Translations under genes and position numbers: made by a program | Assembly (NCBI RefSeq): GCF_900129125.1 | Contig: NZ_FQVJ01000036.1 | Location: forward strand, 1 to 38,043 | DNA: 38,043 nt | Direction of reading: 5' to 3' | Source: Acidocella aminolytica 101 = DSM 11237 | Lineage (GTDB): Bacteria; Pseudomonadota; Alphaproteobacteria; Acetobacterales; Acetobacteraceae | The notes under the pieces: generated by a model | Databases searched by the model: none | Told to the model about the DNA's origin: nothing | The model's input: only the letters and a program-made list of their open reading frames with translations | Shown: positions 9,490-31,819 of the stretch, piece after piece | Layout: every line of letters starts with the position of its first letter | How positions within the stretch are numbered: position 1 is the stretch's first letter

Positions 9490-9725
9490 AGTTAACACTC
9501 CTCGAACATCATGGCGCCCACTATTTCGATCCGGTCTTGGTCCTGGCGGGTCCGGAAACAGCATCTTTCCCCGCTATACAACACGGGTCGGTGAAATCTT
9601 GAGCGGCCGCGCGTTTTAATCCCGCATTAAACGCCATTGTTGGTTCCGCGGCCTCTATACTATTAGCAGCTCGCCACTTTCCCGAAGCAAGTCAACTCCC
9701 AGCTTGTGGCCATTTTGCCGAAAGG
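9490..9725. other. Intergenic region between HDAC-like gene and porin terminator
   Basis: No gene seen. It should hold the promoter for the HDAC-like gene. Confidence 0.4.
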
Positions 9726-9755: not shown

Positions 9756-9787
9756 TATATCGTGCAATTCACGAGGGGCAAATTTTA

Positions 9788-13042: not shown

Positions 13043-13080
13043 ATCACTTTTCCTATATATTTTGATCGAAGCCGTCACAG

Positions 13081-14529: not shown

Positions 14530-14621
14530 GCGATTCCTCCTGATTGATTTTTTGTTTACTGAAACCTGAAGAAATATCTCACGTAATCCTTGCTGAGAGG
14601 TATTGCTAATTGTGCCAAACA

Positions 14622-14638
14622 TTCGATAGAATACGACA
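14622..14638 (+). promoter_or_regulatory. Weaker match to the AraC operator motif in the APC/AraC divergent promoter
   Basis: TTCGATAGAATACGACA resembles the core of TTTCCGATAATATACGCCA (one base shorter in the middle, about three differences). It stands 35 bases before the second AraC start, the same kind of position as the copy at 3016. Confidence 0.3.
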
Positions 14639-14673
14639 CAAGCCAAATAATTATATAAAATGGATTCGTCTTA

Positions 14674-17798: not shown

Positions 17799-17846
17799 AC
17801 TGTCTTCCAACAACACTCTTGCAATCTGGACTCTCTAAGACTTCGC

Positions 17847-19361
17847 TTAACTATAGGCGACGCAGACTGCTTTCGTTTCAAGAAAGTTCTCGACTGCGCC
17901 TGTCCCATGTTCACGGCCGATCCCGGACTGCTTATATCCGCCAAACGGCATATTTTGGTCAGGTAGGTTATGACAATTCACCCACACAGTACCGGCTTGC
18001 AGGCGCGGGACATAGCGCATCACTTTATTGATATCGCGTGTCCAAAGAGAAGCGCTAAGGCCATAGCGCGTGTCGTTCGCCATCCGAATCGCATCCTCCG
18101 GATCTGTAAAAGGAGTGATCGTCGCGACGGGACCAAAGATCTCCTCCTGCATAATCGCCATGTCCTGCCGAACGTTGGTAAATAATTCTGGCGCGACATA
18201 AAATCCACGCCCCAGGTCCGCCTGCGAATTTCCAAGCAGAGGCGTTGCTCCTTGCTCTATGCCGCTCGCAATGCAGCCGCGCACATGCGCCTGGTGACGC
18301 GCTGAAACAACGGGATTGATCTGGTTCGCAGGATCAAGTCCAGAACCGATGCTGAGGCTCCGTGTGATATTTGCAATTATTTCAATAGCCCTGTCGTAAA
18401 TGCCTGATTGCACATAGAAACGAGCACCGGCACAACATGTTTGGCCTGAGTTGAAAAAGCTGCCAATTGCGGTGGTGACACCGAGGAGGTCAAGGTCCAT
18501 GTCATCGAATAGGATCATCGGCGCTTTCCCACCGAGTTCCAGCGTCACACGCTTCATGTCTCTCATCGCCTGCAGGCCGATCAGCTTCCCGGTCTCCGTG
18601 GACCCCGTGAAGGTGATCTTGTTCACGCCGGGATGCGCGACGAGCGGCGCCCCGGTCTTTTCGCCCAAACCAGTGACGACATTAACTACCCCGTCCGGGA
18701 AACCTGCCTCACGGCACAACTCGGCCAGACGCAGTGAGGTCAGTGGGGTCTCTTCCGCCGGTTTGAGAACGACCGTGCAACCAGCGGCGAGCGCGGGAGC
18801 GAGCTTCCATGCGGCCATGCAAAGCGGGAAGTTCCATGGCGTGATCGCAGCGACGACACCCACCGGCTCCTTTCGCGAGAAAGCCTGGTAGCTAGTGCCC
18901 GGCGGAATTGGAATCGAAACATCGAATGTCGAGCCCTCGATTTTCGTGGCCATCCCGGCCATATAGCGAAAATATTCAGCGGAAGAATTGGCCTCGATAA
19001 GGCGAGACAACATAATCGATTTGCCGTTGTTGAGCGTTTCGAGCTGGGCTAACTCCTCACCATTTTCTTCGATAAGATCGGCGAGTTTCAAGATCAGCCG
19101 CTGGCGCGCCGCTGGCAGCAGACGCGACCAGGGCCCCTCCAGCGCGGCGCGGGCGGCACACACAGCCTTGTCTATGTCGACAGCCGAACCTGCGGGAACA
19201 CGCGCCAGCATCTCGCCTGTAGCCGGGTTGAATATTTCATAATTATCCCCGTCTTCGGCTTCCACGCTTTGGCCGCCAATTAGCATTTTCGGGGCACTAA
19301 GAAAGCGGATGACCGCGTCATTCACGGTTTCAACGCGTGTATCAGGTGCTGCGATTCTCAT
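17847..19361 (-). CDS. NAD-dependent aldehyde dehydrogenase, phenylacetaldehyde-dehydrogenase-like
   Basis: 504-residue ALDH superfamily member. Asn177 (TPWNFPL), Lys200 (VVLKPAEETPL), Glu275 (RVTLELGGKAP) and nucleophile Cys309 (NSGQTCCAGAR) are all in place. The N-terminal text LSAPKMLIGGQSVEAEDGDN resembles arylacetaldehyde dehydrogenases (FeaB/StyD type), so oxidation of an arylacetaldehyde such as indole-3-acetaldehyde or 4-hydroxyphenylacetaldehyde is plausible; betaine-aldehyde-type enzymes are an alternative. Start at ATG 19361 with GGGGGA just upstream; the TTG at 19373 is less likely. First gene of the operon with maleylacetate reductase and hydroxyquinol dioxygenase, and divergent from the MarR gene. 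Confidence 0.9.
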   Translation of the reverse strand: MRIAAPDTRVETVNDAVIRFLSAPKMLIGGQSVEAEDGDNYEIFNPATGEMLARVPAGSAVDIDKAVCAARAALEGPWSRLLPAARQRLILKLADLIEENGEELAQLETLNNGKSIMLSRLIEANSSAEYFRYMAGMATKIEGSTFDVSIPIPPGTSYQAFSRKEPVGVVAAITPWNFPLCMAAWKLAPALAAGCTVVLKPAEETPLTSLRLAELCREAGFPDGVVNVVTGLGEKTGAPLVAHPGVNKITFTGSTETGKLIGLQAMRDMKRVTLELGGKAPMILFDDMDLDLLGVTTAIGSFFNSGQTCCAGARFYVQSGIYDRAIEIIANITRSLSIGSGLDPANQINPVVSARHQAHVRGCIASGIEQGATPLLGNSQADLGRGFYVAPELFTNVRQDMAIMQEEIFGPVATITPFTDPEDAIRMANDTRYGLSASLWTRDINKVMRYVPRLQAGTVWVNCHNLPDQNMPFGGYKQSGIGREHGTGAVENFLETKAVCVAYS

Positions 19362-19583
19362 AGGATCCCCCAATTTTTAGTGGCGCGGTTTGACGCCCAG
19401 CATATTGATTGTCTATTTCACGTTCTTTTTACTGTTAATGTCAACCTAATTTCTTCAGGTCAATACAGGCTATCCTTTCATAAAACATAGACTTGCCAAA
19501 GCGGCTTTGCCTGTTGGAAAAAGGGGCATAAAATTTTGAGACTCTTAACGCTACCCTCGACAGCTACAAGCCGAAAGCCCGCC
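19362..19583. promoter_or_regulatory. Divergent promoter region between aldehyde dehydrogenase and MarR regulator
   Basis: About 220 AT-rich bases. TTTCACGT at 19416-19423 repeats one half of the perfect palindrome TTTCACGTGAAA found in the iacA/iacI promoter (26067-26078), which would fit a common MarR-type operator. No gene is visible inside. Confidence 0.4.
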
Positions 19584-20072
19584 ATGCCACCTAGAAGTAC
19601 GACTCTCGCAACCATATCGAAAGAACTCCTTTCCACGCCAGTCAGATACATGAAGCGCAACTGGCCTTTCTACTGGATTTCCCAGGTCAATGGCCGCTAC
19701 GTCCAGGTGCTGGAGAGGCGTTTGAAGCCAATTGGACTGGATATGCCTCGCTGGCGGGTGCTAATGTCACTATATGAGGACGGCTATCTCAGTGTCTCCG
19801 AAATTGCCGAATTCAGCGTCCTAAAACTGAATACGACCACCAAAATCGTGCAACGCATGATTGCCGATGGCCTGGTTACAACCCGCCAGGGTGTTGCCGA
19901 TGGCCGCGTAACCGAAGTAACGCTGACCAAGGCTGGCGAGAAGCTCCGGCACCATGCTTTGGCTGAAGCAGAGAAAATCCTAACCAGCAGCTTCGTTAAC
20001 ATCACACCGGAGGAGTTGACGACACTGAACACCTTACTTGAAAAAGTATTCATTCAGCTCGCCGGTGCCTAA
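19584..20072 (+). CDS. iacR: MarR-family regulator, probable IacR
   Basis: 162-residue winged-helix repressor. Dimerisation helices at both ends (YMKRNWPFYWISQVNGRYVQ and the C-terminal TTLNTLLEKVFIQLAG) flank the DNA-binding part: LSVSEIAEFSVLKLNTTTKI (recognition helix) and the wing VADGRVTEVTLTKAGEKL. Known iac clusters are controlled by a MarR protein released by indole-3-acetate. The frame is open to a TTG at 19536; ATG at 19584 gives a family-like start. Its stop overlaps the iacG stop tail-to-tail by three bases, and it diverges from the aldehyde dehydrogenase operon, so it could control both. The name rests on neighbourhood more than sequence. Confidence 0.75.
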   Translation: MPPRSTTLATISKELLSTPVRYMKRNWPFYWISQVNGRYVQVLERRLKPIGLDMPRWRVLMSLYEDGYLSVSEIAEFSVLKLNTTTKIVQRMIADGLVTTRQGVADGRVTEVTLTKAGEKLRHHALAEAEKILTSSFVNITPEELTTLNTLLEKVFIQLAGA

Positions 20073-20563
20073 CCCGGCGGCGGCAGCCGGTGATAGGTCC
20101 TTCCAAACCAAACAAGGCCGTCGTCCGCATTGCCGTTTAACGTCACATCTACCTCGCAGATAAATACTGAATGGGTACCGCGGTTCAAGCGATCGACAAT
20201 CCGACAGTCAAAGGCGGCGAGTGCATTTGCCAGCACCGGGGCGCCTGTTATGGCGTGCTCCCAAGTACCATACGCAAAACGATCGTCCTCACTAAACCGC
20301 GCAAATCGGCCGGACAGCTCCTCGTGCTCTCCAGTGAGTACATTGACACATAGCACGCCGTTCTCGACGAACATGTCATGCGACTTAGTACGTTGATTGA
20401 CGCAAACCAGCAGCGTCGGCGGGCTATCGGTAACTGAGCAGACTGCGGTCGCGGTCATACCATGTCGCCCCGCCTGGCCATCTGTCGTAATAAGATTCAC
20501 GGCTGCGCCAAGGCGGCTCATTCCTTCCCTGAATGCAGCTTGAGCCGGGATAACTTCAGACAT
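20069..20563 (-). CDS. iacG: Flavin reductase, IacG
   Basis: 164-residue FMN/FAD reductase-domain protein (HpaC/flavin reductase-like). FREGMSRLGAAVNLITTDGQ, GMTATAVCSVTDSPPTLLVC and NVLTGEHEELSGRFA are the standard flavin-binding phrases. It would use NAD(P)H to supply reduced flavin to IacA, which lacks its own reductase. The ATG at 20563 lies inside the end of iacF (8-base overlap), a sign of translational coupling. Last gene of the iacA-G run. Confidence 0.87.
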   Translation of the reverse strand: MSEVIPAQAAFREGMSRLGAAVNLITTDGQAGRHGMTATAVCSVTDSPPTLLVCVNQRTKSHDMFVENGVLCVNVLTGEHEELSGRFARFSEDDRFAYGTWEHAITGAPVLANALAAFDCRIVDRLNRGTHSVFICEVDVTLNGNADDGLVWFGRTYHRLPPPG

Positions 20564-21530
20564 CGAGCACCAGCCTCGCGCCGATGGCGCGTGAGCAGCA
20601 GGTGCATATGTCCTCGTTGGTCTCCCGTTCCTCATCCGTGAGGAATTTATCACGGTGATCGGGAATACCCTGCAGCACAGAGGTAAGGCAGGTGCCACAC
20701 ACCCCTTCCTCGCACTTCACTGGAATTTTTACACCAACCCGTGCCAACGCCCTAGCGATGGTGTCCTTCGGGCCGACAGTAACGGTCACACCGGACTCAC
20801 GCGCCTCGACCTCAAAACTGTCGCCCGAGCTGTCAATCTTCGCTGAAAAATACTCGCGGTGAATGGTAGCCGGCGGGTAGCCGCACGCCTCAGCGCAGGA
20901 AATAACCCAATCCATGAAACCCGATGGGCCGCAGACATAGATATGCGTCGCTCCATCAGGGGGCGGCAAATCGCGCGCGAGATCGAGACGCTGCTCTTGC
21001 GGACCATCATCATGATGGAGCCGTACATGCCTGCTGAAGGGAGCGGTCTCAAGATCGGCACGGAAAGCCGTACCAGCCGCAGTGCGCGTGCAATAATGCA
21101 AGGTAAACTCCGAGCCCAAGGCGTGCAGCCTCTTTGCCATGGACAGCATGGGCGTGATGCCGATTCCACCACCAAACAGCAAGGTGTGCTCGGCTGTCTC
21201 ATCCAGCGGGAAATGGTTCCGCGGTCCTTCGGCCGTGAGCATCGTCCCGACGCGTACGCGTTCATGCAGGGCTATGGACCCGCCCCTGCTTGACGGGTCT
21301 TTTAGGATACCGATTTCATATTGCTCGGTGTCGGCAGGGTCGCTACAAAGCGAGTATTGCCGCCAAACGGCGGATTCTTCCCCTGGAACCTGAACATCGA
21401 TATGGGCGCCAGCTGCGAATTGCGGCAACGGCATACCATCTGCCGAAGCCAAGCGTAGGCGCATGATATTGCCCGCGTCGTCCTGGCGATCACGCACCAT
21501 GAGAACAATCCCCCTAGCGTCTGCGTTCAT
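20556..21530 (-). CDS. iacF: Oxygenase reductase with C-terminal [2Fe-2S] ferredoxin domain, IacF
   Basis: 325-residue phthalate-dioxygenase-reductase/VanB type protein that passes electrons from NAD(P)H to the Rieske oxygenase IacCD. Order: FMN/FAD-binding barrel (RQYSLCSDPAD at about 55-65), NAD domain (TLLFGGGIGITPMLSMAK and IYVCGPSGFMDW), then a plant-type ferredoxin with the cluster cysteines in VKCEEGVCGTCLTSVLQG and the fourth in NEDICTCCSRA. Start at ATG 21530 because GAGGAAT precedes it; the ATG at 21542 overlaps the SDR stop and lacks a site. Eight-base gap from iacE. Confidence 0.88.
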   Translation of the reverse strand: MNADARGIVLMVRDRQDDAGNIMRLRLASADGMPLPQFAAGAHIDVQVPGEESAVWRQYSLCSDPADTEQYEIGILKDPSSRGGSIALHERVRVGTMLTAEGPRNHFPLDETAEHTLLFGGGIGITPMLSMAKRLHALGSEFTLHYCTRTAAGTAFRADLETAPFSRHVRLHHDDGPQEQRLDLARDLPPPDGATHIYVCGPSGFMDWVISCAEACGYPPATIHREYFSAKIDSSGDSFEVEARESGVTVTVGPKDTIARALARVGVKIPVKCEEGVCGTCLTSVLQGIPDHRDKFLTDEERETNEDICTCCSRAIGARLVLDV

Positions 21531-21538
21531 CTCATTCC

Positions 21539-22297
21539 TCATCGCATATAAATCCCGCCATTCACGTCCCAGCATGCCCCAGTGACAAAGCCAGCTGAGG
21601 GCGCGGCGAGCATCACCACCAGGGAAGCTACAAAATCGGGATCCCCGAGATGCCCGACAGGTATGTTGGCCAGCGTGGCCGCCAGTTTGTCCCCTGTAAG
21701 AACGGAGCGCACCATGGGGGTATCCATGGGACCCGGCGCGATGGCGTTCACGGTAACCCCAAACGGGGCCAAGTCACGAGCAAAGACCTTGGTTAACGTA
21801 AGGATTGCGCCCTTGGACGCTGCATAATGCGCCCCCGTCGCCGTTCCGCCATTCTGCCCTGCAAGTGAAGCAAGGTTGATGATCCTTCCATAGCCGCGCG
21901 CTTTGAAATGCCGACCGAAAATCTGGCTACCTGCAAAGGTACCGCCAGCATTCACTGCCATGATGGCGTTGAAATCCTCCGGCGTGATTTCAAGCACTGG
22001 TTGCACAGCGGTGCGCGCGGCGTTATTCACCAGCACCTCAGCTGAGCCCCAACGGCTGATGATTCTATCCAGAACATGCTGGAAATGCTCCGGCTTGGAG
22101 ACATCCAGCGTAGCGGTTACAGCCGTTTCGCCAGAAAGATCAAGCTCGGCCGCCAACGCCTCTGCTGCGGAACTATCAATGTCGCCGACCACGACGCGGA
22201 AACCAGCCTTGTGCAATGCCCTCGCCGCCGCCGCGCCAAAACCTCCGCCGCCGCCAGTTATGACGGCTGTTTGAATCTGATCAGGTGCCGGCATCAT
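21539..22297 (-). CDS. iacE: Short-chain dehydrogenase/reductase, IacE
   Basis: 252-residue SDR. Cofactor loop AVITGGGGGFGAAAARAL (11-28), Asp39 after strand 2 (VVVGDID), VNNAA at 90-94, and the catalytic triad Ser144, Tyr158, Lys162 (NLASLAGQ...HYAASK). In characterised iac systems IacE converts 2-oxoindole-3-acetate to dioxindole-3-acetate. The Asp suggests NAD rather than NADP. Its ATG shares one base with the stop of iacD (TGATG), so translation is coupled. Identity as IacE comes from place in the cluster plus SDR family. Confidence 0.85.
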   Translation of the reverse strand: MMPAPDQIQTAVITGGGGGFGAAAARALHKAGFRVVVGDIDSSAAEALAAELDLSGETAVTATLDVSKPEHFQHVLDRIISRWGSAEVLVNNAARTAVQPVLEITPEDFNAIMAVNAGGTFAGSQIFGRHFKARGYGRIINLASLAGQNGGTATGAHYAASKGAILTLTKVFARDLAPFGVTVNAIAPGPMDTPMVRSVLTGDKLAATLANIPVGHLGDPDFVASLVVMLAAPSAGFVTGACWDVNGGIYMR

Positions 22298-22791
22298 CAG
22301 AACAAATAGCTGATCGAGGTGAGAATCCCATCGGAATTCAACAGCCGGACAATCTTATCCCGGATGAGAAACCCATCCCCCGCGCGCGAAAGAACGTAAG
22401 TGACATTTGCCGCGAAAAGCCGTTGGCGGCCAAACTTGTCCTCGACTAAATGCTGCGCGCAGCGCACCTGCACCTCTCGATCGTCCTCTGCAGAGATCAC
22501 AAAACGCGATAAAGTGCGAACAGTCTGCGCCGGCGGCGCAGACGAGATAGAGAAACCCGCCTTGAAGCGATCGATGCGCATGCGCCGCATCGCTGCATTA
22601 TCGTAGGCGAGGTTCAGAACATTCTGATAGTCCTCAATATCACCGATGGGCAGAATATAATGCCCGTCCTGCGTCCAGAGCGTCAGCCAAGCATCATAAT
22701 CCTTCCGGTCCAGTAGATCGGCCTCGACCCAGATGAATTGCGTCACGCGCTGCAACAGGGCTGTCTGTTCCAAGCTTGTCAACTTACTCAT
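22297..22791 (-). CDS. iacD: Aromatic-ring-hydroxylating dioxygenase small (beta) subunit, IacD
   Basis: 164-residue NTF2-fold beta subunit of a Rieske oxygenase, structural partner of IacC. FIWVEADLLDRKDYDAWLTL and WTQDGHYILPIGD are the typical N-terminal pattern, TVRTLSRFVISAEDDREVQV the sheet region, and it ends with the ILTSISYLF hydrophobic tail usual for this family. Start overlaps the alpha-subunit stop (ATGA). The longer frame to 22812 lies within iacC and is not used. Confidence 0.9.
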   Translation of the reverse strand: MSKLTSLEQTALLQRVTQFIWVEADLLDRKDYDAWLTLWTQDGHYILPIGDIEDYQNVLNLAYDNAAMRRMRIDRFKAGFSISSAPPAQTVRTLSRFVISAEDDREVQVRCAQHLVEDKFGRQRLFAANVTYVLSRAGDGFLIRDKIVRLLNSDGILTSISYLF

Positions 22792-24041
22792 GCGCTCATC
22801 ATCCTCTTCCACATCTTGTAGGCAGCACGCATTCCTGTTTCGGCGCTCACATGTCCGCGCGGACCGTCAGTTCCCTGCTCATCGCCCCCCCGGTTGACCA
22901 GAATCTCCTGTTGTTCCAGCCCCGCTGCGCCACGCTGGACACGCTCCCAGACTTCCGAATCATCCGGACTACCGAACCCCAGCGGGCCCTGGAAATGCTC
23001 ATGCAGCCTCAGCCGCATGCGATTGGCAGCAGCCGGGCCACCCTTCATACCGATCGCAATATGGCGAATCGCTGTCTCGTTCACGCGTACCGGACGCAAA
23101 ACCCGGAAAAACGCCATCGAACAGGCGACATTTGGAAATAGATTCAGATTGAAGCCACTCCCGCCAACGGCACGCACAATGCGACGCACTTGGTCCTCGC
23201 CATGTTCCTTGCGTAACTCCTCGGCCAATTGTTGAAACCTCTCAGGGATTGGCGCGTCGAGATTCGCTTCCAGATCAACTAATTCGGGGATCATTACCAT
23301 CACTGAGTGACCGTTACCAAGGTCTTCGACAAATCCCGCGCCATCCATAAAGGTAAAGGTCTTCTCCGCCTCCTTATCGAGCGATTGCAAGAAGGATTTA
23401 TGCACGATCGGGAAATGATAGGCATCCGTTGTATTTTCTAGCTGGATTTTCCAGTTACCAGGGAAGCTGAATTGATGCTCACCTAACGTAGTGACGGGAT
23501 ATCCCCCACCTTGCTTCATGAACAGATCAATCCACTTCTTCGCAGGCCCTAAAAAGTCGTCCAGTGGCTCGGCTGCCTCGTTGAATGTGGCGAAGATCAT
23601 GCCTCGGTAACTTTCAGACCTAAGCGACTTCATCCCGTACTTCGATTTGTCAAAATCCTCGCCATACTCTTCAGGCTGGGGCAAAGCGCGCAAACTCCCA
23701 TCCAGCGCGTATCCCCAACCGTGATAGGGGCATTGGAAAGAGGAGGTTTTCCCCTGCTTCACTTCGCATACGGTCGCAGCGCGATGGCGACAGCGATTCG
23801 CCAATACGTTGATGTCGCCCTTGCGGTCGCGCACAACGATGACCGACTGAGGACCAACCCAGGAGAGCTTGAATGAACCTTTTTCCGGGACCTCCGAATC
23901 GTGAGCAACCCACACCCAGGTCCGGGCAAAAATCTTTTCCATCTCTTCGTTGAAAATTGATTGATCTTCGTACATCGTCGACTTGATGCGGTCGCCAGAG
24001 AACAAAGTCTCCGGCGCGATTGGATGAGGATAATCAAGCAT
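22788..24041 (-). CDS. iacC: Rieske non-heme iron dioxygenase large (alpha) subunit, IacC
   Basis: 417-residue oxygenase component. Rieske [2Fe-2S] ligands Cys84, His86, Cys104, His107 (NRCRHRAATV...FQCPYHGWG). Mononuclear iron: bridging Asp206 and ligands His209 and His214 (ENTTDAYHFPIVHKSFL), with the third carboxylate probably in GSPDDSEVWERV near residue 370. With IacD and IacF it is thought to act on dioxindole-3-acetate on the way to catechol. RBS AAGGAG is 9 bases before the ATG. All metal ligands are intact. Assignment to iac rather than anthranilate or benzoate oxygenases is from the linked IacA/E/G/R set. Confidence 0.9.
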   Translation of the reverse strand: MLDYPHPIAPETLFSGDRIKSTMYEDQSIFNEEMEKIFARTWVWVAHDSEVPEKGSFKLSWVGPQSVIVVRDRKGDINVLANRCRHRAATVCEVKQGKTSSFQCPYHGWGYALDGSLRALPQPEEYGEDFDKSKYGMKSLRSESYRGMIFATFNEAAEPLDDFLGPAKKWIDLFMKQGGGYPVTTLGEHQFSFPGNWKIQLENTTDAYHFPIVHKSFLQSLDKEAEKTFTFMDGAGFVEDLGNGHSVMVMIPELVDLEANLDAPIPERFQQLAEELRKEHGEDQVRRIVRAVGGSGFNLNLFPNVACSMAFFRVLRPVRVNETAIRHIAIGMKGGPAAANRMRLRLHEHFQGPLGFGSPDDSEVWERVQRGAAGLEQQEILVNRGGDEQGTDGPRGHVSAETGMRAAYKMWKRMMSA

Positions 24042-24089
24042 GTGAGGAAACTCCTTGCGCCGCCAATGCAGCGGATGGCTTGGTGACTC

Positions 24090-24449
24090 TTACAGATTCG
24101 GGATTTCCAGAGCGCGGCCCATGCGCGCCTCAATCCGCATATAACGCCACAGCCTGTGCTCGCCGACTTCAATGGTCCGGAAGAGGTTACAGGCGGCCTT
24201 TACGGTTTCCCTATCGGGACAGTCAGCCAGCAGGTAACATGTGAACGGGAAACCTGCAGGAGAGGTTCCCACCATCGTTTCGTCGTCGTCCAGCGTGCCT
24301 AGAACCGTAACGCCGGGAAGCTTGGAAACATTCGACATGAAGCTGGCGAAACCCGTCCATACCTTGCCGATTTCTTCAAAGGGCAAATCGAAGAAATTCT
24401 GAAGGACAGCAACACAAAATAATGTCCGGATGGGTTTGACGTTTGTCAT
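24090..24449 (-). CDS. iacB: Small conserved protein of iac clusters, IacB
   Basis: 119-residue protein with no motif that I can assign to a reaction; the beta-alpha pattern (RTLFCVAVLQNFFDLPFEEI, PFTCYLLADCPDRETVKAAC, RTIEVGEHRLWRYMRIEAR) looks like a ferredoxin-like dimeric alpha/beta-barrel. In iac operons a protein of this size follows iacA; published in-vitro work with another IacB found it dispensable for the IacE step. AGGAG stands 6 bases upstream of its ATG. Gap of 36 bases from iacA and 48 to iacC, so same transcript. Function unknown. Confidence 0.75.
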   Translation of the reverse strand: MTNVKPIRTLFCVAVLQNFFDLPFEEIGKVWTGFASFMSNVSKLPGVTVLGTLDDDETMVGTSPAGFPFTCYLLADCPDRETVKAACNLFRTIEVGEHRLWRYMRIEARMGRALEIPNL

Positions 24450-24485
24450 TTTTAACTCCTAATTCATAAGCTGGCTGTGCTGTGA

Positions 24486-25631
24486 TTAAGGGTATCCTGG
24501 AGGCGTCGGCTGCTGGAACAATCCCGCACCAGCGAACGTCCAAGTACCAGTGCCAAGGAATGCGTGCTGCGCCACTGCGGCGGCATCAATCATACAGCGG
24601 TTCAGCACATGGCCTCGGCGAAGCGCATCGGTTCCACCAAGTTCGAAAGCCGTACGGGCCGCTGCTGCCCCGCTATGCGCCGCCCGCGTCGCCGCCAAGC
24701 GAAGCTTGACATTCATCTCTGCCTGCACCTTACCACCATGCAGCACCTGCTCCCAAGCAGCTTCCATCGTGTCGTAAAAATAGGCCCGCGCGGCGGAAAG
24801 CTCAGCCTCGGCCTGCGCAAATCCCGCTTGCAGGTAAGGTCTTGTCCCTCCCGCTGGCGCACCAGTGATGGAGCTTTTAGAAGCAGTTTGGCCTTGTATA
24901 TAATCCAACGCCTCACGCGCCGTCCCAAGCCCTACGACCGCCAGCACTTGTGCCGCCAGGGCCATGGCAGGATACCTGAATATGGGTTCGGAGCGTAGCG
25001 ATGGTCCCCCACGCACAAAGGTCATCGCATGCGGCACCAGAACGTCTTCCACAACAACATCGTGACTACCCGTTGCGCCCAACCCGATTGCATCCCATGT
25101 AGGGTCGATCCTTACTTGGTGGGGGCGCATAATGGCCATACGCGGAAGCCCCCCCGTTTGATCGTCTCCTTTAGTGCCAACACCAATGATGTCTGCCCCC
25201 ATGCACCCAGAGCAGTATGGCCAGCGGCCGGACACAATGAAGCCTTCCGGCGCCTCTCGAGCCACTTGCGGAGGAAACAATGACCCAGCAAACGTAAGAT
25301 CCGGGTCCGCGCCATAGAGAGCTTCGAAAGTCTCGCGCGGAAGCGCTCCAAGGTAAACAGCGCTAACGCCAAAACTTGCAACCCATCCGGTCGAGGCATC
25401 TGCCTTGGCAATACGTTCGATCAAACGGCAAAATTCAGCGGGCGACATCTCATCACCACCAAGAGCTTTAGGCACAAAAGCGCGATAAACGCCGACTTTC
25501 TTGAGGGATTTTACCATATCCCGAGGAATGTGGCCGAGCCCTCCAAACTCTCCGCGGCGCGCACGAATCTCCGCCTCTACAGCCTCAAGCTCAGAATCCG
25601 CAGAATGCGCGGGCGCAAACATCTGGTTCAT
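24486..25631 (-). CDS. iacA: Acyl-CoA-dehydrogenase-fold flavin monooxygenase, IacA
   Basis: 381-residue group D flavin-dependent monooxygenase, the first enzyme of indole-3-acetate breakdown, forming 2-hydroxy/2-oxoindole-3-acetate with reduced flavin from IacG. The N-terminal helical domain includes VYRAFVPKALGGDEMSPAEF and ADASTGWVASFGVSAVYLGA; middle beta domain has RWPYCSGCMGADIIGVGTKG and TWDAIGLGATGSHDVVVEDV; C-terminal helices carry GGTDALRRGHVLNRCMIDAA. The lack of an acyl-CoA catalytic glutamate context and the partner reductase argue against a true acyl-CoA dehydrogenase. ATG at 25631 chosen (GAGAGG upstream). First gene of the operon. Confidence 0.88.
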   Translation of the reverse strand: MNQMFAPAHSADSELEAVEAEIRARRGEFGGLGHIPRDMVKSLKKVGVYRAFVPKALGGDEMSPAEFCRLIERIAKADASTGWVASFGVSAVYLGALPRETFEALYGADPDLTFAGSLFPPQVAREAPEGFIVSGRWPYCSGCMGADIIGVGTKGDDQTGGLPRMAIMRPHQVRIDPTWDAIGLGATGSHDVVVEDVLVPHAMTFVRGGPSLRSEPIFRYPAMALAAQVLAVVGLGTAREALDYIQGQTASKSSITGAPAGGTRPYLQAGFAQAEAELSAARAYFYDTMEAAWEQVLHGGKVQAEMNVKLRLAATRAAHSGAAAARTAFELGGTDALRRGHVLNRCMIDAAAVAQHAFLGTGTWTFAGAGLFQQPTPPGYP

Positions 25632-26020
25632 TCTCACAAAACCTCTCAATAAAACTCTGGAACATTTCCTGCCACCCGTTCCGCCACGGCAGATAGCTGA
25701 GCATCTTCCCCTTTGCAGCAGACAGGCTGTATTTCAGCGGACAGATTAATATTCGTGCACAAAAGAATAGCCAGAGACTGAAAACCACTCAGACCGGAGG
25801 GGCGAATCAGTCATAACAGCGGGAAAACTCCTCGCGGATCCCCTGCCTGTACCAGCCGCGGCAGAACAACCAGCAACGCCTGCATCACGATCACATCGGC
25901 ATCGAACGGCGCCATATTGCGCCCGATCGTTGACGGTCATGGACAACCGCTTTTCTCCCCTCATAAAATGCGGACAAAAAGACTTTAGGCTTCTTTCCAC
26001 ACCTCATTATACATGATTAT

Positions 26021-26065
26021 TACCGTATTTTTCGAGCCTGTCAAGCGCTTTCCGCTATACGGTAT
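26021..26065. promoter_or_regulatory. Inverted TACCGTA / ATACGGTAT pair
   Basis: TTACCGTAT at about 26020-26028 and its inverted relative ATACGGTAT at 26057-26065 are 28 bases apart, next to the palindrome at 26067. Possible regulator half-sites in the iac promoter. Confidence 0.35.
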
Positions 26066-26066
26066 G

Positions 26067-26078
26067 TTTCACGTGAAA
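26067..26078. promoter_or_regulatory. Perfect palindrome TTTCACGTGAAA: parS-like or MarR operator
   Basis: TGTTTCACGTGAAAAT at 26065-26080 matches the known ParB site consensus TGTTTCACGTGAAACA in 14 of 16 positions. It lies in the iacA/iacI control region about 135 bases before iacI. A 12-bp palindrome is also a normal size for a MarR operator, and half of it recurs in front of the iacR/aldehyde dehydrogenase pair. Confidence 0.45.
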
Positions 26079-26212
26079 ATGCATTGACGCATGGGTGCTT
26101 CGGAAATAACAATATCGCGACTTGGTGATTAAGTAAGTGATTGCCGGTGAGCGATGATAGCAATCACAGACAAATATACCGCAAAGCTGCCTTTTACGGG
26201 GAAACTGATATA

Positions 26213-26776
26213 ATGAACGAACCGAATTCAACAAGATATGCCGCTCTTGAACGGCGCATCCAAGTTCTTGAAGCCGAAGCCGATATTCGACGTCTGCAAG
26301 CTCGGTATATGTTTCTATGTGACACGCCTTGCCCGGAATATGGGGTACGTGATGACTCGCATCGGATAGAGTTGATCCTTGAGCTATATTCAGAAGATGC
26401 CATTTGGGAAGGCGTCGGCAGTTATTACGACAATCAGTTTGGCCGTGCCGAGGGCAAGAGTGCAATCCGCCGTCATTTCCAGAATTTCTGGGGCGAAAAG
26501 CGCGACCCTGCCCTTCTTCTTAACGCACATTATTTGACAAGCGAACAAATCCACATAAATGGTGATGAAGCGGATGGGCAGTGGATTCATATTCAGCCAT
26601 GGATTTTCGCCGATGGAAAATCGCTCGTGCGATCAAGCCGTCTGAACAACGCTTTCCGCCGAGTTGAAGGTGCTTGGAAAATTACCCGCACACGGACGGA
26701 AAATGTATTCGTTGCACCGCTTACAGCGGGCTGGGCGGAGTCATTTCCCAATCATTCAGTCTTGATGAAACCATAA
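26213..26776 (+). CDS. iacI: NTF2/SnoaL-like protein, probable IacI
   Basis: 187-residue protein with a leading coiled helix (YAALERRIQVLEAEADIRRL) and a SnoaL-like/NTF2 fold: ELILELYSEDAIWEGVGSYY, GRAEGKSAIRRHFQNFW, then strands SEQIHINGDEADGQWIHIQP and the terminal GAWKITRTRTENVF. Members of this fold are isomerases, dehydratases or binding proteins; IacI is found in iac clusters without a settled role. The frame extends back to 26141 but ATG at 26213 gives the family-like start and a purine-rich site (GGGGAAA). Transcribed away from iacA. The name depends on locus context. Confidence 0.7.
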   Translation: MNEPNSTRYAALERRIQVLEAEADIRRLQARYMFLCDTPCPEYGVRDDSHRIELILELYSEDAIWEGVGSYYDNQFGRAEGKSAIRRHFQNFWGEKRDPALLLNAHYLTSEQIHINGDEADGQWIHIQPWIFADGKSLVRSSRLNNAFRRVEGAWKITRTRTENVFVAPLTAGWAESFPNHSVLMKP

Positions 26777-26895
26777 ATCCGACTTGGATCTGTAGTCGCA
26801 GATTCTGTGCCGTACTCTGCGCGACGCCCGAGCCAGTCATGAACGCTGCAAACAGATAAGTATTGCTTGAGAGGGAGATTTCCGCCCGATCATAC
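26740..26895 (-). pseudogene. Possible C-terminal remnant of a Gram-negative porin
   Basis: On the minus strand the text YDRAEISLSSNTYLFAAFMT then GSGVAQSTAQNLRLQIQVGF looks like the last strands of a 16-stranded general porin (L-S-x-x-T-x-L-Y-A pattern, ending Q-V-G-F), overlapping the end of iacI. No upstream part and no proper stop after the final strand. Weak evidence, but it fits a lost uptake porin between iacI and catA. Confidence 0.35.
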
Positions 26896-27067
26896 TGGAC
26901 GTTTTTAAAAATCTTAAAACAACACCCAGAATATCATGGCTGAGAAGAGATCGCATTGGTTATGAATGCCGTTATCGACACAAGAAAAGGACAATCACCG
27001 TAACTTTATGTCCGTCATGATTATATTCACCAAGACACTAACGATAGCTTGAAACGCGTCAACGTAT

Positions 27068-27088
27068 TATAATCACTACAAAAGGAGG
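27068..27088 (+). promoter_or_regulatory. Likely catA -10 box and strong ribosome binding site
   Basis: TATAAT at 27068-27073 is followed by AAAGGAGG at 27081-27088, eight bases before the catA ATG. A recognisable -35 is weak (TAGCTT about 17 bases upstream), as for an activator-dependent promoter. Confidence 0.4.
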
Positions 27089-27096
27089 AAAACAAC

Positions 27097-28026
27097 ATGT
27101 CTTCATTACTGAAGACCCAACACATTCAGGAACTGATCAAGAAAGCTTCCGGTCTAACAGTCGAAGGCGGTGACGCTCGCCTGAAGAAGATCACAGAGCG
27201 CTTCCTGACTGACACTATACGCCTGATCGAGGACTTCAATGTCACGCCGAGCGAATTCTGGTACGCCGCCAATTATCTCGCCCGCGTCGGACAGTCCGGC
27301 GAGATCGGCCTCGTCGTTGCCGGGTTGGGCCTGGAGCATTTCCTCGACCTGTTACAAGACAAGGTCGAGGAGGAAGCTGGCCTTGACGTTAAGAGTGGCA
27401 CGCCGCGCACGATTGAAGGGCCTCTCTATATTGAAGGCGCACCGCTCTCTAAGGGAGAAGCCCGCCTTGACCAGCTTGCCGAGAATGGCGAAGTGCTCAT
27501 CATGGAAGGCCAGGTAAAAGACGTGGCCGGCAAGCCTGTTTCTGGCGCCATCGTAGATGTCTGGCATGCCAACACAAAGGGTAACTACTCGCATTTCGAC
27601 CAATCACAGCCTGCTTTCAATTTGCGTCGCCGAATTGAGACGGATGGCGAGGGGCGCTACAAATTTCGCAGCATTTTGCCCTCCGGCTACGCCGTGCCGC
27701 CTGAAGGCACAACCAATCAATTTCTTAAATCAATCGGCCGCCATGGCAACCGGCCAGCGCATATCCATTTCTTCGTCTCTGCCCCTGGCTACCGCAAACT
27801 GACGACGCAAATCAACATCGAGGGTGATGAATATATCTACGATGACTTTGCCTATGCCACCCGCGACGGACTGATTCCGCCGGTGGTACGACATTCGACA
27901 GCCGCAGAAATTCAGGCCAAGGGCCTTAACGAACCGTTCGTGACAATCCACTTCGACTTCACGCTACACCGAGAAGAAGCCGGCCTGCCGGCCGCCGAGG
28001 TGGAACGGCTCCACGCTCCCGCCTGA
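27097..28026 (+). CDS. catA: Catechol 1,2-dioxygenase
   Basis: 309-residue intradiol dioxygenase converting catechol to cis,cis-muconate. N-terminal helical linker domain (1-105) then the catalytic sandwich. Iron ligands Tyr164 (KGNYSHFD), Tyr198 (LPSGYAVPPEG), His222 and His224 (RPAHIHFFVSAPG) match the canonical numbering closely. The phrases TIEGPLYIEGAPL and VSGAIVDVWHANTKG are diagnostic of catechol enzymes. Head of catA-catB-catC; strong AAAGGAGG site. It takes the catechol produced by the iac pathway. No LysR-type catR lies beside it, so control differs from the textbook cat operons. Confidence 0.95.
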   Translation: MSSLLKTQHIQELIKKASGLTVEGGDARLKKITERFLTDTIRLIEDFNVTPSEFWYAANYLARVGQSGEIGLVVAGLGLEHFLDLLQDKVEEEAGLDVKSGTPRTIEGPLYIEGAPLSKGEARLDQLAENGEVLIMEGQVKDVAGKPVSGAIVDVWHANTKGNYSHFDQSQPAFNLRRRIETDGEGRYKFRSILPSGYAVPPEGTTNQFLKSIGRHGNRPAHIHFFVSAPGYRKLTTQINIEGDEYIYDDFAYATRDGLIPPVVRHSTAAEIQAKGLNEPFVTIHFDFTLHREEAGLPAAEVERLHAPA

Positions 28027-28094
28027 AACCGTTCCGCCCGTGGCCACGGCAGTGTCCACGGGCTTCCCGCCTGTCCCGTCTCAACGATTAGAGA
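28027..28094 (+). other. catA-catB spacer with hairpin
   Basis: CCCGTGG and CCACGGG pair across a 12-base loop in the 68-base spacer. It may separate or stabilise transcript segments rather than stop transcription, as no U run follows. Confidence 0.4.
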
Positions 28095-29261
28095 ATGTCC
28101 ATGTCCCAGGCTCCTTCGATCCAGCTCACCGAAACGACGAAGGATTTCGCGATCCATTCGGTCGTCAGCCTGATCGTGGATGTTCCCACGATCCGCAAGC
28201 ATAAGCTCTCGCAAACCTCAGTCACGGCGCAGAACTACGTCATTGTGCGCATTCGTCTTGTCAACGGCGTGGAGGGCATCGGAGAGGCCGCGACACTGGG
28301 TGGACCGCGCTGGAGCGAGGAAAGCGTGGAAGGCATCAAGACCGTTATCGACACCTACCTCGCTTCCGCCATCATCGGGCTAGACGCCCGCCAGATTCAA
28401 ATCGCGGCAGCGAGTATGGATCGAGCCGCCAAGCGGAATAACGCCGCGAAGGCCGCCATCGAAACCGCCTTGTGGGATGCCATGGGCAAGAGCCTTAACC
28501 TGCCCGTGCATACCTTCTTCGGCGGCGCCGTTCGAACGAAAATTCCGGTGCTGTGGACCCTGGCCTCCGGAGATCCTTGTCAGGAAATCGAAGAAGCCAA
28601 CGCCAAGCTCGAACAGCGCCTGCATAACCGTTTCAAAGTGAAAATCGGCGCGCAAACGCCGGAGCAGGACATCGCACGCCTGACCAAGCTTACCAATGCG
28701 CTAAATGGCCGCGCCGAATTGATTGTAGACGTGAACCAGGCGTGGGATGAGTCCATCTCGATCCACTATTTGCCGAGACTCGCCGACATGGGGATCAAAC
28801 TGGTGGAGCAGCCAGTCCCGGCCTGGAACATCCCCGCCCTCGCTCGCCTGCGTACCCGCCCCGGCATCCCGCCGATCCTCGCCGATGAATGCGTGTTCGA
28901 CGCGCACGACATGCTGCACGTCGCCAATGCTGGGGCAGCAGATGCTGTCTCCTTGAAGTTAGTGAAGCATGCGGGCCTAGTCGGCCTCCGCGCTGTCGCC
29001 TCTGTGGCCGAGGCCGCTGGCCTCGAGCTTTATGGCGGCTGCCTGCTGGAAAGTTCCGTCGGGGCTTCTGCGCATCTTCAGGTTTTCTCTACCTTCCGGA
29101 AACTACATTGGGGCTGCGAACATTTTGGGCCACAGATTCTTATCAGCGACATCGTTGCCGAGCCGCTGAGGTTCGCTGATTTCTGTGTGCATTTACCTAG
29201 CGGGCCAGGTATCGGCATGGTTCTGGACGAAGACAAGCTGCACCGTTTCACGCGCGCATAA
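28095..29261 (+). CDS. catB: Muconate cycloisomerase
   Basis: 388-residue enolase-superfamily enzyme turning cis,cis-muconate into muconolactone. The two-lysine motif Lys181-x-Lys183 (RFKVKIGAQTPEQD), metal ligands Asp212 (VDVNQAWDES), Glu238 (VEQPVPAWN) and Asp264 (ILADECVFDAHD) and the second acid/base Lys288 (AVSLKLVKHAG) are all present. The N-terminal capping domain covers about residues 18-140. A few residues longer at the N-terminus than usual (MSMSQAPSIQLTETTKDF); ATG at 28101 is an alternative start. Followed by catC after 17 bases. Confidence 0.95.
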   Translation: MSMSQAPSIQLTETTKDFAIHSVVSLIVDVPTIRKHKLSQTSVTAQNYVIVRIRLVNGVEGIGEAATLGGPRWSEESVEGIKTVIDTYLASAIIGLDARQIQIAAASMDRAAKRNNAAKAAIETALWDAMGKSLNLPVHTFFGGAVRTKIPVLWTLASGDPCQEIEEANAKLEQRLHNRFKVKIGAQTPEQDIARLTKLTNALNGRAELIVDVNQAWDESISIHYLPRLADMGIKLVEQPVPAWNIPALARLRTRPGIPPILADECVFDAHDMLHVANAGAADAVSLKLVKHAGLVGLRAVASVAEAAGLELYGGCLLESSVGASAHLQVFSTFRKLHWGCEHFGPQILISDIVAEPLRFADFCVHLPSGPGIGMVLDEDKLHRFTRA

Positions 29262-29278
29262 TAAGGGAAGTCTTTCAA

Positions 29279-29557
29279 ATGCTTTATGCTGTACATATGG
29301 ATGTCCAAATCCCCCATGATTCTGACCCGGCTACCATCGACAAGTTGAAGGCCGAGGAGAAGGCACGTGCGCAGGATTTACAGCGTGAGGGCAAATGGGT
29401 GCATCTATGGCGCGTAGCCGGACGCTATGCCAATATCAGCATCTTCGACGTGGCTGGCCATGACGAGCTTCACGGTGTTCTTTCTACACTACCACTGTTT
29501 CCATTCATGGAGATCAGCGTAACACCATTGGCCAAGCACCCATCTTCGATCAAGTAG
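29279..29557 (+). CDS. catC: Muconolactone delta-isomerase
   Basis: 92-residue small isomerase that moves the double bond of muconolactone to give 3-oxoadipate enol-lactone; the family forms decamers of ferredoxin-like subunits. MLYAVHMDVQIPHDSDPATI, EKARAQDLQREGKWVHLWRV, YANISIFDVAGHDELHGVLS and LPLFPFMEISVTPLAKHPSS are the expected conserved segments, including the catalytic glutamate of KAEEKARA. Preceded by AAGGGAAG. No catD/pcaD follows, so the next step is encoded elsewhere. Confidence 0.95.
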   Translation: MLYAVHMDVQIPHDSDPATIDKLKAEEKARAQDLQREGKWVHLWRVAGRYANISIFDVAGHDELHGVLSTLPLFPFMEISVTPLAKHPSSIK

Positions 29558-30346
29558 CCGAAACAAAGTAACATTTATTAGCGTAAACGACTAAATTTGC
29601 GTGCATGCATCAATAATTCCAGTTACATCTTCAGCCTTTCTATTGCTGTAATCGCTTGGTACCGCTCTACGTGTGTGGCAGGGAGAAGACGCACGCGTTC
29701 GCCAAAGCGTGCTGGCTTATATGTCTGACCTTACACAGTTGCGTGGCTTCTAATATTTATTACGATATGATGTAAATTGTTTGGTGCGGGAGGTTGTGGG
29801 CCTACTAATCCAGATCGGCATCACCGTCTATTATGGCGATGACCTTCTCATCGGCGGCATGTTCACAGAATAACCTCACTGCGCCGACCCCGGTCCGCTT
29901 TATCGCTTTCATTCTTTACGACGACGAGGTGGCGCCAGCTTTTTCCCACCCTAATCGTAGTTTGACGGCAAGCCCCATGCCCGCGTGCATGGCTTCGGCG
30001 CTATCCAGAATTCCATCATCGTCAGCAAGACGACTGCCGGCTTGGGCGAAGCACCCACTGTCATATGGTTTCTGGCGACGCCGCCGCGTACTGTAACCCG
30101 AAGGCAATGCCCTCACCTCAAAGGGCATTGCCGCCTCCAAGCGAACTAAAACTATGAAGCAAACATATGTGACAAAACTAAAGCTCGTGGGCCGCCAAGG
30201 ATGCCGCGACCTAGGTTCCCATCCGGAGCCCTGCAAGAGACTTTTGTCTGGTTCACACATGTTAGTCCCTCCAGCGATGCTGCATATCTCAACGCTGGAA
30301 AAGTCGACAGAAATGTCTTATTCGATTGAATCATTTCTAAAAATTC
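29558..30346. other. Intergenic region after catC (about 790 bases)
   Basis: No recognisable gene. Short open frames on both strands (for instance 29833-30096 plus and 29916-30260 minus) have no family likeness and overlap each other. The one clear structure is the hairpin at 30103. A short text ending GLLIQIGITVYYGDDLLIGG (about 29793-29865) looks like real protein sequence but I cannot name it. Confidence 0.45.
30103..30132. terminator. 11-base-pair perfect hairpin between cat and iacH units
   Basis: GGCAATGCCCT and AGGGCATTGCC enclose an 8-base loop. It lies between the convergent catC and iacH transcripts. There is no U tract on either side, so bidirectional termination is likely but not certain. 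Confidence 0.55.
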
Positions 30347-31621
30347 TCAATAATTTGCAACGATTTTTGGGATTTGGCGTGGCGGCAACAGGCTCTCCGC
30401 CCAAGCCGCATATTCCAGTAATTTTTCATCTGTATTTCGCGCACCGAGAAGCTGTATGCCAATTGGCAACCCATTCTCACCCACCATTCCTGGCAGAGTT
30501 ACACTAGGCAAGCGCAGCAAAGTCCAAAGTCGGCTAAATATCGGGTCACCTGTTACCTCCAGCCCCAACGGAGCCTCTCCCGGCGCAGCCGGCGCAAGCA
30601 GTACATCGTAATTTTCAAAGACTTCCGAAATTTCCCGACGAAGCTGACGAGCTTTAATTCTAGCGGCAAGATAATCGTCATACGACACAGCCGTACCAGA
30701 CCTGATCAGAGCCAAAATTTGCGGGCTCAGGAGATTGGCATGATTGTCATACTCGGAGGCAAGCACCTGCACCGCCTCATAACTCATAATAAGCTTATGC
30801 AATCCCTCTCCCTCAACAAAGCCGTCTAACGCCAACGGCTCTACTAGCGTCTCTGCACCTAATAATTCAGCCGCATTTTCAAGGGCAAGGTGCATGTCTG
30901 CCTTTCCTTGGTTCCACCAGGGAGTACGGCAAAAGCCGATCCGTGTCGGACGGACTGGATGGCCCGCCATCCCGCCCCCCAAAACTCCGTGGGCAGCGAC
31001 CAGACCGGCAACATTCGGGGCCAATACGCCGAGCGTATCAAAAGAAGGCGCCAACCCCTTTACGCCAGCGAGGCTGTAGCTACCAAAAGATGGTTTCAGC
31101 CCAGCAATACCGCAATAGGATGCAGGACGAGTGAGGGAAGCTGCCGTTTGGGACGCCAAACCAAGTCCGACCATACCCGCCGCCACGGCAGCGGCTGATC
31201 CCGAGGACGAACCGCCGGGTGTACGATTTAGGTCATGCGGATTTCGTGTTTTCCCAGGACGAAAGAAAGCAAATTCCGTTGTCACCGTCTTACCCATATT
31301 CACCGCACCGGCGCGCTCAAGAAGAGAAACGCAAGTGGCATCAGCACGAGGCCGGAAACCATCGTAAATAGGCGAACCATAGGTGGTAGGAAAATCTTTC
31401 GTCTCAATAATATCCTTGACGCCGACACCAACCCCCGAGAGCAGACCGGGACGAGGAACAAAGCCATGTATACGCGCTCGGTCAAACGCACAGAAAGCAC
31501 CGATCTGAGGCTCGACGGCCTCTATGATTTTAAGCATGCGATCGATGCCATTCTGGGTTGATGCCATAACAGGCTGTATTGAGCGTTCGGGCAAAACTTT
31601 TTTCCTTTCTATCGTCTTCAT
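30347..31621 (-). CDS. iacH: Amidase-signature hydrolase, probable IacH
   Basis: 424-residue amidase-signature enzyme. Ser-cisSer-Lys triad: Lys69 (GVGVGVKDIIET), cis-Ser138 and nucleophile Ser162 (TPGGSSSGSAAAVA ... SQTAASLTRPASYCG) with the 24-residue spacing seen in malonamidase E2. Amidases named IacH occur in indole-3-acetate clusters, where the role is not settled. The start is uncertain: ATG 31621 is used, and ATG 31567 gives MASTQNGIDRML, close to where homology begins. It is on the opposite strand to the cat genes and about 4.7 kb from iacA, unlike clusters where iacH neighbours iacA. A general amidase is the alternative. Confidence 0.78.
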   Translation of the reverse strand: MKTIERKKVLPERSIQPVMASTQNGIDRMLKIIEAVEPQIGAFCAFDRARIHGFVPRPGLLSGVGVGVKDIIETKDFPTTYGSPIYDGFRPRADATCVSLLERAGAVNMGKTVTTEFAFFRPGKTRNPHDLNRTPGGSSSGSAAAVAAGMVGLGLASQTAASLTRPASYCGIAGLKPSFGSYSLAGVKGLAPSFDTLGVLAPNVAGLVAAHGVLGGGMAGHPVRPTRIGFCRTPWWNQGKADMHLALENAAELLGAETLVEPLALDGFVEGEGLHKLIMSYEAVQVLASEYDNHANLLSPQILALIRSGTAVSYDDYLAARIKARQLRREISEVFENYDVLLAPAAPGEAPLGLEVTGDPIFSRLWTLLRLPSVTLPGMVGENGLPIGIQLLGARNTDEKLLEYAAWAESLLPPRQIPKIVANY

Positions 31622-31819
31622 ATCCCAGCGCGGTTTATTTCGGCACAACAAAGGCCGTTACAGGAGATGGTTTTCCGCAAGACAGTTAATACCGACTATC
31701 GAATCTTTTAACGAAATCAAGCAAACAGGAAAAGCTGTATAACGCAGAAATCGAAGCGATTATTTGAATAAAAACAGAAAATCAAATCACGACGCCGCTC
31801 AAGCTGCAATTGCAACAAA

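Follow-up and report, generated by a model that had tools for sequence, protein, structure and literature searches.

A probable indole-amine and auxin catabolic super-locus in Acidocella aminolytica, with iac genes predicted to feed catechol and hydroxyquinol branches

We analysed a 38,043-base stretch of DNA from Acidocella aminolytica 101 = DSM 11237, hereafter the window, which is the whole of contig C13 (NZ_FQVJ01000036.1) in a 3.96 Mb assembly of 109 contigs stated to be 99% complete. The window carries an iac locus for degradation of the auxin indole-3-acetate (IAA), flanked by the pair of genes typical of a hydroxyquinol pathway, hydroxyquinol 1,2-dioxygenase (HQDO) and maleylacetate reductase (MAR), and by families known from arylethylamine degradation, namely an FAD oxidase, a transaminase and an arylacetaldehyde-type dehydrogenase, all three in candidate roles. 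We judge it probable, reading from sequence, that the block forms a catabolic super-locus for indole-amines and auxin in which the Iac enzymes would feed both a catechol and a hydroxyquinol branch.

In the proposed pathway, tryptamine-type amines would be imported by an APC-family permease and lose their amino group either to a module of FAD oxidase, Rid protein and TynB or to an amine transaminase, giving an indole-3-acetaldehyde, which the arylacetaldehyde-type dehydrogenase would oxidize to the corresponding indole-3-acetate. From IAA, IacA-G together with an iacI-like protein would make catechol, and from 5-hydroxy-IAA they would make 4-hydroxycatechol (hydroxyquinol); catechol would then be opened by CatABC, hydroxyquinol would pass to 3-oxoadipate through HQDO and MAR, and PcaD with PcaIJF, encoded elsewhere in the genome, would complete both branches. 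Tryptamine and auxin would supply the catechol branch and serotonin (5-hydroxytryptamine) the hydroxyquinol branch, 5-hydroxy-IAA being the product of serotonin deamination and oxidation. If Iac handles 5-hydroxy-IAA like IAA, ring numbering places the oxygen of indole C5 (or C6) at catechol position 4; if Iac is the source of hydroxyquinol, its substrate would bear a hydroxyl at C5 or C6 of indole. Removal of the amine would need to precede Iac, since the IacA of Caballeronia glathei did not oxidize tryptamine (excerpted text of PMC7225977). In an iac-bearing Acinetobacter, 5-chloro-IAA inhibits growth on IAA, and the authors hypothesize that Iac forms chlorinated catechols (PMC12502551), a result that fits the passage of ring-substituted IAA through Iac without showing it. 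We hold only tentatively that the same genes make up a complete food pathway for serotonin (and tryptamine), which would run from amine removal and aldehyde oxidation through Iac to hydroxyquinol and by intradiol cleavage to 3-oxoadipate.

The iac and cat genes at the centre of this reading are listed here, with percentages giving identity to the window protein across the 88 census loci described below.

24486..25649, minus strand: iacA, flavin-dependent monooxygenase with an acyl-CoA dehydrogenase fold (PF08028 and alignment; 44-65%)
24090..24449, minus strand: iacB (49-81% in iac loci having iacB)
22788..24041, minus strand: iacC, Rieske dioxygenase large subunit (PF00355, PF00848; 58-77%)
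22297..22812, minus strand: iacD, ring-hydroxylating dioxygenase small subunit (PF00866; 42-64%)
21539..22297, minus strand: iacE, short-chain dehydrogenase family (PF13561/PF00106; 47-80%)
20556..21575, minus strand: iacF, reductase with a 2Fe-2S domain (PF00111, PF00175, PF00970; 42-63%)
20069..20698, minus strand, likely start ~20563 read from the sequence: iacG, flavin reductase (PF01613; RutF model 200 bits, cut-off 255; 25-66%)
19536..20072, plus strand: IacR-type MarR regulator, convergent with iacG
26141..26776, plus strand: iacI-like SnoaL/NTF2-fold protein, divergent from the operon (PF13577)
27097..28026, plus strand: catA, catechol 1,2-dioxygenase (TIGR02439 424.5 bits, cut-off 392)
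28095..29261, plus strand: catB, muconate cycloisomerase (TIGR02534 432.5 bits, cut-off 335)
29279..29557, plus strand: catC, muconolactone isomerase (TIGR03221 146.4 bits, cut-off 130.6)

As an earlier note on this DNA had proposed, iacA-G form one minus-strand operon, a single run (20069-25649) in which the listed open reading frames (ORFs) overlap or lie no more than 48 bp apart, those of iacC through iacG overlapping and iacB being flanked by gaps of 48 and 36 bp. Family scans with Pfam and NCBIfam, which covered a selection of the window ORFs, placed IacA, C, D, E, F and G in their expected broad families, and no model in either collection matched IacB. The Iac proteins did not prove to match unrelated pathways, the outcome that the same note had named as contrary to its reading: IacC reached 204 bits against an anthranilate dioxygenase model with a cut-off of 672 and was 58-77% identical to the IacC of iac loci. 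The MarR gene that it had placed at the operon end is there, and belongs to the IacR group by its three best PDB relatives, 7KUA, 7L19 and 7L1I, all of which stand in the PDB list of PMC9613470 (excerpted text), 7KUA being the IacR of Pseudomonas putida. Its catABC call also held, with all three proteins exceeding the NCBI curated cut-offs. The genes pcaI, pcaJ, pcaF, pcaD and pcaHG occupy one stretch on another contig, so with pcaI, J, F and D present both branches could finish through the 3-oxoadipate route. A predicted IAA-to-catechol route in the window is well supported by homology, by the type of MarR regulator, by catABC and by pcaIJFD, and to this extent the earlier reading stands, but it overlooked the flanking genes for a predicted amine entry and hydroxyquinol branch and misidentified iacH.

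The hydroxyquinol and aldehyde genes lie on the iac strand beyond the MarR gene, with spacers of 30 and 32 bp.

15868..16707, minus strand: HQDO (structure-relative search)
16740..17816, minus strand: MAR (3w5s 470 bits, 3hl0 469 bits)
17847..19373, minus strand: aldehyde dehydrogenase, arylacetaldehyde type (phenylacetaldehyde dehydrogenase 4o5h 548 bits; StyD model 680 bits, cut-off 850)

The HQDO scored 434, 259 and 249 bits to the (chloro)hydroxyquinol dioxygenases 8r2x, 3n9t and 1tmx versus at most 144 to catechol dioxygenases, and copies of the aldehyde dehydrogenase with 69-76% identity adjoin iac in loci where HQDO is linked to it. Beyond these three genes lie those of the candidate amine import and removal steps.

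4100..5392, minus strand: FAD-dependent amine/amino-acid oxidase of the DAO family, part of the TynB/Rid/oxidase module (PF01266; L-amino acid deaminase 5fjm 243.5 bits)
5404..5826, minus strand: Rid-family imine/enamine hydrolase (PF01042; TIGR00004 under cut-off)
5839..7047, minus strand: TynB, 'tyramine oxidase subunit B', ornithine cyclodeaminase/mu-crystallin fold (NF004848 687.8 bits, cut-off 362)
8380..9564, minus strand: HDAC-like amidohydrolase, candidate deacylase of N-acylated amines (PF00850; propanil hydrolase 9gku 545 bits)
11672..13084, minus strand: class III amine transaminase (PRK07481 728.9 bits, cut-off 575; omega transaminase 5lh9 562.5 bits)
13081..14646, minus strand: APC-family permease, candidate amine importer (PF13520/PF00324; 55-66% identical copies in linked loci)
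14674..15705, plus strand: AraC-family regulator (PF12625, PF12833; nearest NCBIfam model QhpR 212 bits, cut-off 250)

The FAD oxidase also adjoins Rid and TynB in L109, L110, L111, L112 and L131-L133, copies of the transaminase with 76-83% identity adjoin HQDO in Pannonibacter, Phaeobacter, Sagittula and Roseibium, and copies of the HDAC-like amidohydrolase with 52-54% identity occur near iac in L020, L034 and L093/L117. Tyramine was considered as the substrate of the whole block and rejected because it would leave Iac and HQDO without a task and because the scans of selected window ORFs named no homoprotocatechuate gene. In the same part of the window, positions 9788-10963 encode a 391-residue protein with an apparent signal peptide and no Pfam or NCBIfam match, perhaps an outer-membrane channel, and 11171-11650 holds short overlapping ORFs with the look of a decayed gene, which by eye we take to be a relative of alanine dehydrogenase or transhydrogenase.

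The linkage of these genes to iac recurs well beyond Acidocella. Our census comprised 88 iac loci, namely 8 plasmid loci and the best 80 of at least 506 relatives from one scan, all picked by IacA similarity to the window; two of its entries (L015 and L023) are one record, and it includes some short contigs. For 73 of the 80 scanned loci the whole genome was searched for IacA, HQDO and TynB, and linkage was scored as an HQDO (E ≤ 1e-80) within 16 kb of iacA or an amine-removal gene, either TynB or a transaminase of at least 70% identity, within 20 kb. HQDO was present in 30/73 genomes and lay within 16 kb of iacA in 18, where random placement would give about 0.3. TynB was present in 23 and linked in 17, and the transaminase was linked in 3, one further genome with a 53% copy ~10 kb away being scored against the model. 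An amine-removal gene was linked in 16 of the 18 HQDO-linked genomes versus 5 of the 55 others (Fisher p 5e-10), and collapsing the genomes to 46 genus labels, which removes relatedness only partly, gave 10/12 versus 3/34 (p 4e-6).

Gene order varied among lineages while the set was kept, as in Sagittula, Martelella AD-3, Roseibium, Phaeobacter and Halomonas campaniensis. The linked set is also present in Azospirillum lipoferum 4B and Rhizobium straminoryzae. Sagittula stellata E-37 packs iac and the genes for transaminase, MAR, HQDO and aldehyde dehydrogenase into ~16 kb, interspersed with a transporter gene, and Martelella AD-3 carries in one stretch catBCA, pcaD, AraC, APC, TynB, Rid, FAD oxidase, HQDO, aldehyde dehydrogenase, HDAC, iac and MarR. 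Halomonas campaniensis keeps iac, MAR, HQDO, oxidase, Rid and TynB together in a different order, and Novosphingobium rosa (L127) has HQDO, MAR, catBCA, MarR and iacHAB at a contig end beside a second iacA.

These figures bear on a simpler explanation, which we consider unlikely, that the window is a plain auxin locus whose iac and cat genes degrade IAA through catechol and whose hydroxyquinol, amine and transaminase genes are unrelated neighbours, for instance for resorcinol or tyramine use, on a shared catabolic island. Such an explanation fits the good iac-cat set at the core, the GC mosaic of the island, the 55/73 iac genomes without linked HQDO and the occurrence of TynB modules without iac, as on a Klebsiella plasmid; it sits poorly with a linkage far above random placement, which unrelated genera show in several gene orders, and with the coincidence of HQDO linkage and amine-gene linkage. 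The source of hydroxyquinol also argues against it: three flavin monooxygenases served as controls, and in 6/8 HQDO loci that lack iac one of them has a close homologue next to HQDO (three of the six being the queries' own loci), and across 32 iac-linked stretches these three hydroquinol-forming enzymes matched IacA alone, at 26-33%, a comparison that leaves other kinds of hydroxylase possible. Within the window, likewise, no control-type monooxygenase other than IacA and no resorcylate decarboxylase was matched.

The coincidence of the two linkages also separates our reading from one in which the two branches are handled apart, an amine or alcohol branch (tryptamine or tryptophol) yielding IAA and catechol and a hydroxyquinol branch serving 5-/6-hydroxyindole-3-acetates taken up as acids, with serotonin not a substrate. 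By ring numbering, 5- and 6-hydroxy-IAA would both yield hydroxyquinol; TRAP transporters, which are often used for acids, adjoin iac in Thioclava, Martelella and Sagittula; and a GMC oxidoreductase near iac in Martelella AD-3 and Gemmobacter would suggest entry of an alcohol. TynB is linked without HQDO in 4/73 genomes, and HQDO is linked without an amine gene in 2. We nevertheless regard separate handling as decidedly unlikely, because the coincident linkage is most simply explained by one hydroxylated amine.

We then considered whether the linked genes share one history. In trees of 17 iac-linked and 8 unlinked rows for each protein, tested after a similar tree had already been seen, a single clade of iac-linked rows was rejected for both HQDO (p-AU 0.002) and MAR (p-AU 0.009). 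For MAR, 14 linked alphaproteobacterial rows formed their own clade, the window and Halomonas fell among unlinked genes, and Novosphingobium sat on a long branch. A combined IacC and IacE tree of 53 rows placed all 18 linked rows tested, which include the window and Halomonas and exclude Novosphingobium, in one 30-row clade (99/95) with the window outermost. These trees point to a single lineage of Iac enzymes, so the hydroxyquinol genes would have come from, or been replaced by, different sources; several HQDO and MAR origins beside one Iac lineage would fit a need for the activity better than a chance neighbourhood. Residue 95 of IacE is arginine in 19/19 HQDO-linked rows, as in the window and Halomonas, and in 8/50 others, which is not independent evidence because the linked rows share ancestry; in several of the other top columns separating linked from unlinked Iac proteins, the window departs from the linked rows.

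A number of observations count against the super-locus we favour. The 73 genomes, picked because their IacA resembles that of the window, are in part relatives of one another; HQDO lies away from iac in 12 of the 30 genomes that bear it, an amine gene is not linked in 2 of the 18 HQDO-linked genomes, 12 of the 30 members of the IacC and IacE clade lack a linked HQDO, and in Martelella AD-3 the iac-linked HQDO stands without an adjacent MAR. The window HQDO is 76-79% identical to unlinked copies, including that of the gamma-resorcylate cluster of Rhizobium leguminosarum, a similarity that also favours a plain auxin locus, and because the window HQDO and MAR both group with unlinked resorcylate-type genes they could serve another phenol. 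Neither the aldehyde dehydrogenase nor the AraC regulator reaches the cut-off of its best model. The label 'tyramine oxidase subunit B' comes from databases and was not found as a phrase in the literature searched, and neither was a published test of Iac enzymes on 5-hydroxy-IAA. Gene families, linkage and phylogeny are what we observed, and from them we infer every substrate and the direction of flow.

The remaining genes of the iac region depart in several respects from the classical arrangement. The earlier note had reported a divergent iacI, of which the divergence stands and the identity needs qualifying, since the gene belongs to a SnoaL class, with 56-75% identity to its relatives and 31-40% to classical IacI; 39 of the 88 census loci carry this class and 34 classical IacI, none carries both and 15 carry neither, and the SnoaL gene is likely a replacement for classical iacI. 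It is divergent in 19/20 mapped loci, which were chosen mostly for linkage, and catA, B and C lie jointly within 10 kb of iacA in 6/88 census loci (L021, L052, L074, L077, L089, L091), so the arrangement that the note called unusual is better described as uncommon but known. Upstream of the operon, a pattern search gave the following feature.

26016..26064, minus strand: candidate promoter TTGACA-17-AATAAT (11 of 12) overlapping an 8-base inverted repeat, candidate operator

Promoter-type sites numbered 22 versus 12.2 expected in shuffles, and this promoter and repeat were not seen conserved among 17 relatives. Elsewhere in the census, seven records (L015/L023, L024, L025, L028, L035, L041, L101) have IacA, IacE and IacG, with IacB in five of the seven, and no IacC, IacD or IacF match within 10 kb; three of these loci hold the closest IacA relatives of the window, at 61-66%. 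Such loci may take IAA to dioxindole-acetate and then follow a different route.

The iacH gene that the earlier note had placed nearby was not borne out, and two features account for the difference.

30347..31651, minus strand: amidase of a second iac-associated clade, not canonical IacH (PF01425; tree)
~25658..25903, minus strand: 3'-terminal remnant of canonical iacH in the spacer from iacA to the iacI-like gene (68-80 codons; 6/6 IacH queries match)

The amidase is only 27-34% identical to canonical IacH. A tree built from 27 amidases sets it apart in a 100/100 clade that includes amidases from three Acetobacteraceae iac loci; the clade also holds the second amidase of Acinetobacter SH20PTE14 and that of Marinobacterium, both from loci that also carry canonical iacH. 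Its clade, its low identity and the presence of a true iacH remnant elsewhere rule it out as iacH. The remnant matches 68-80 residues in the C-terminal part of 6/6 canonical IacH queries at 30-44% identity (E 3e-6 to 1e-11), and in the rest of the genome the best match to Azospirillum IacH was 39% over most of its length, with one of 45% over 161 residues. We call iacH lost from the locus, with a stump left, because the amidase sits in another clade, the genome-wide best match is 39% and the spacer keeps only a C-terminal piece. The gene is accessory, being absent from those named for the known iac steps in the excerpted text of PMC9613470. Amidases of the second clade recur near iac (window 30347-31651; L018 18029-19462; L085 19192; L079, L095, L100), sometimes alongside canonical iacH, and possibly hydrolyse auxin conjugates or indole-acetamide.

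Compared with known systems, the window shares with the iac clusters of P. putida 1290 and Acinetobacter (iacR-iacHABICDEFG) the iacA-G operon, an IacR-type MarR and catABC at hand, the context of the P. putida 1290 cluster including catechol genes (excerpted text of PMC6624763). It differs in having an iacH remnant, another amidase, another iacI class and the MarR gene at the operon end, and it adds the amine, aldehyde and hydroxyquinol genes. The HQDO and MAR group with copies of the gamma-resorcylate/resorcinol-type hydroxyquinol pathway, for example that of Rhizobium leguminosarum (L107), but that pathway's resorcylate decarboxylase and accompanying monooxygenase have no matched counterpart in the window besides IacA. 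The TynB/Rid/FAD-oxidase module, APC permease and AraC-type regulator are five gene kinds found also in Martelella AD-3, Gemmobacter, Thioclava and a Klebsiella plasmid; the plasmid's regulator is annotated only as helix-turn-helix and, unlike in the window, no iac lies beside the module. That plasmid, from Klebsiella pneumoniae and typed conjugative (L111), carries these five genes as a free-standing module at 5451-10879. The iad loci of Variovorax and Bradyrhizobium, which convert IAA to anthranilate, are MarR-controlled and Rieske-dependent like the window (excerpted text of PMC9613470), whereas the window has an IacR-type MarR and A-G genes that match those of iac loci.

Among the matches listed in our literature search, which left most subscription papers outside, no title or abstract start tied iac to serotonin, 5-hydroxy-IAA or hydroxyquinol, and no description of the auxin pathway being used for tryptamine or serotonin was found in the searchable literature. 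The main texts of PMC9613470 and PMC11630574 contain no serotonin, hydroxyquinol, maleylacetate or 5-hydroxy, nor does that of PMC9613470 contain tryptamine; PMC12462448 has no serotonin, tryptamine or hydroxyquinol, and PMC11373566 no hydroxyquinol or tyramine. A serotonin degradation product is mentioned for nodule metabolites (excerpted text of PMC9554594).

In none of 24 same-genus genomes did an IacA match exceed 33% identity, and across a sample of the class a match at E 1e-70 or better occurred in 3/385 genomes, the window's own included. The block core has a GC content of 53.9% and the oxidase-Rid-TynB stretch one of 63.7%, compared with 57.5-60.8% in four other stretches of the genome. 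Taking these observations together, the block was likely acquired horizontally, as a mosaic. After the block, at 32775-33965, lies an IS110-family RNA-guided transposase with 74% DNA identity to elements on Lichenicola plasmids.

If the proposed pathway is correct, it would provide a gene-level account of the mineralization of serotonin and 5-hydroxyindole-3-acetate by bacteria, and the ring-cleavage branch required by the Iac route would depend on which substituent the indole ring carries. Among Alphaproteobacteria and Halomonas, one lineage of 'auxin' loci would equally be a lineage of serotonin loci, and the same Iac enzymes would serve a plant hormone and an amine of animals and plants. 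The presence of iac genes would then not be evidence of auxin use alone, and gene content would predict growth on serotonin. Tryptamine and serotonin occur in plant, algal and animal habitats, on all of which the pathway would bear.

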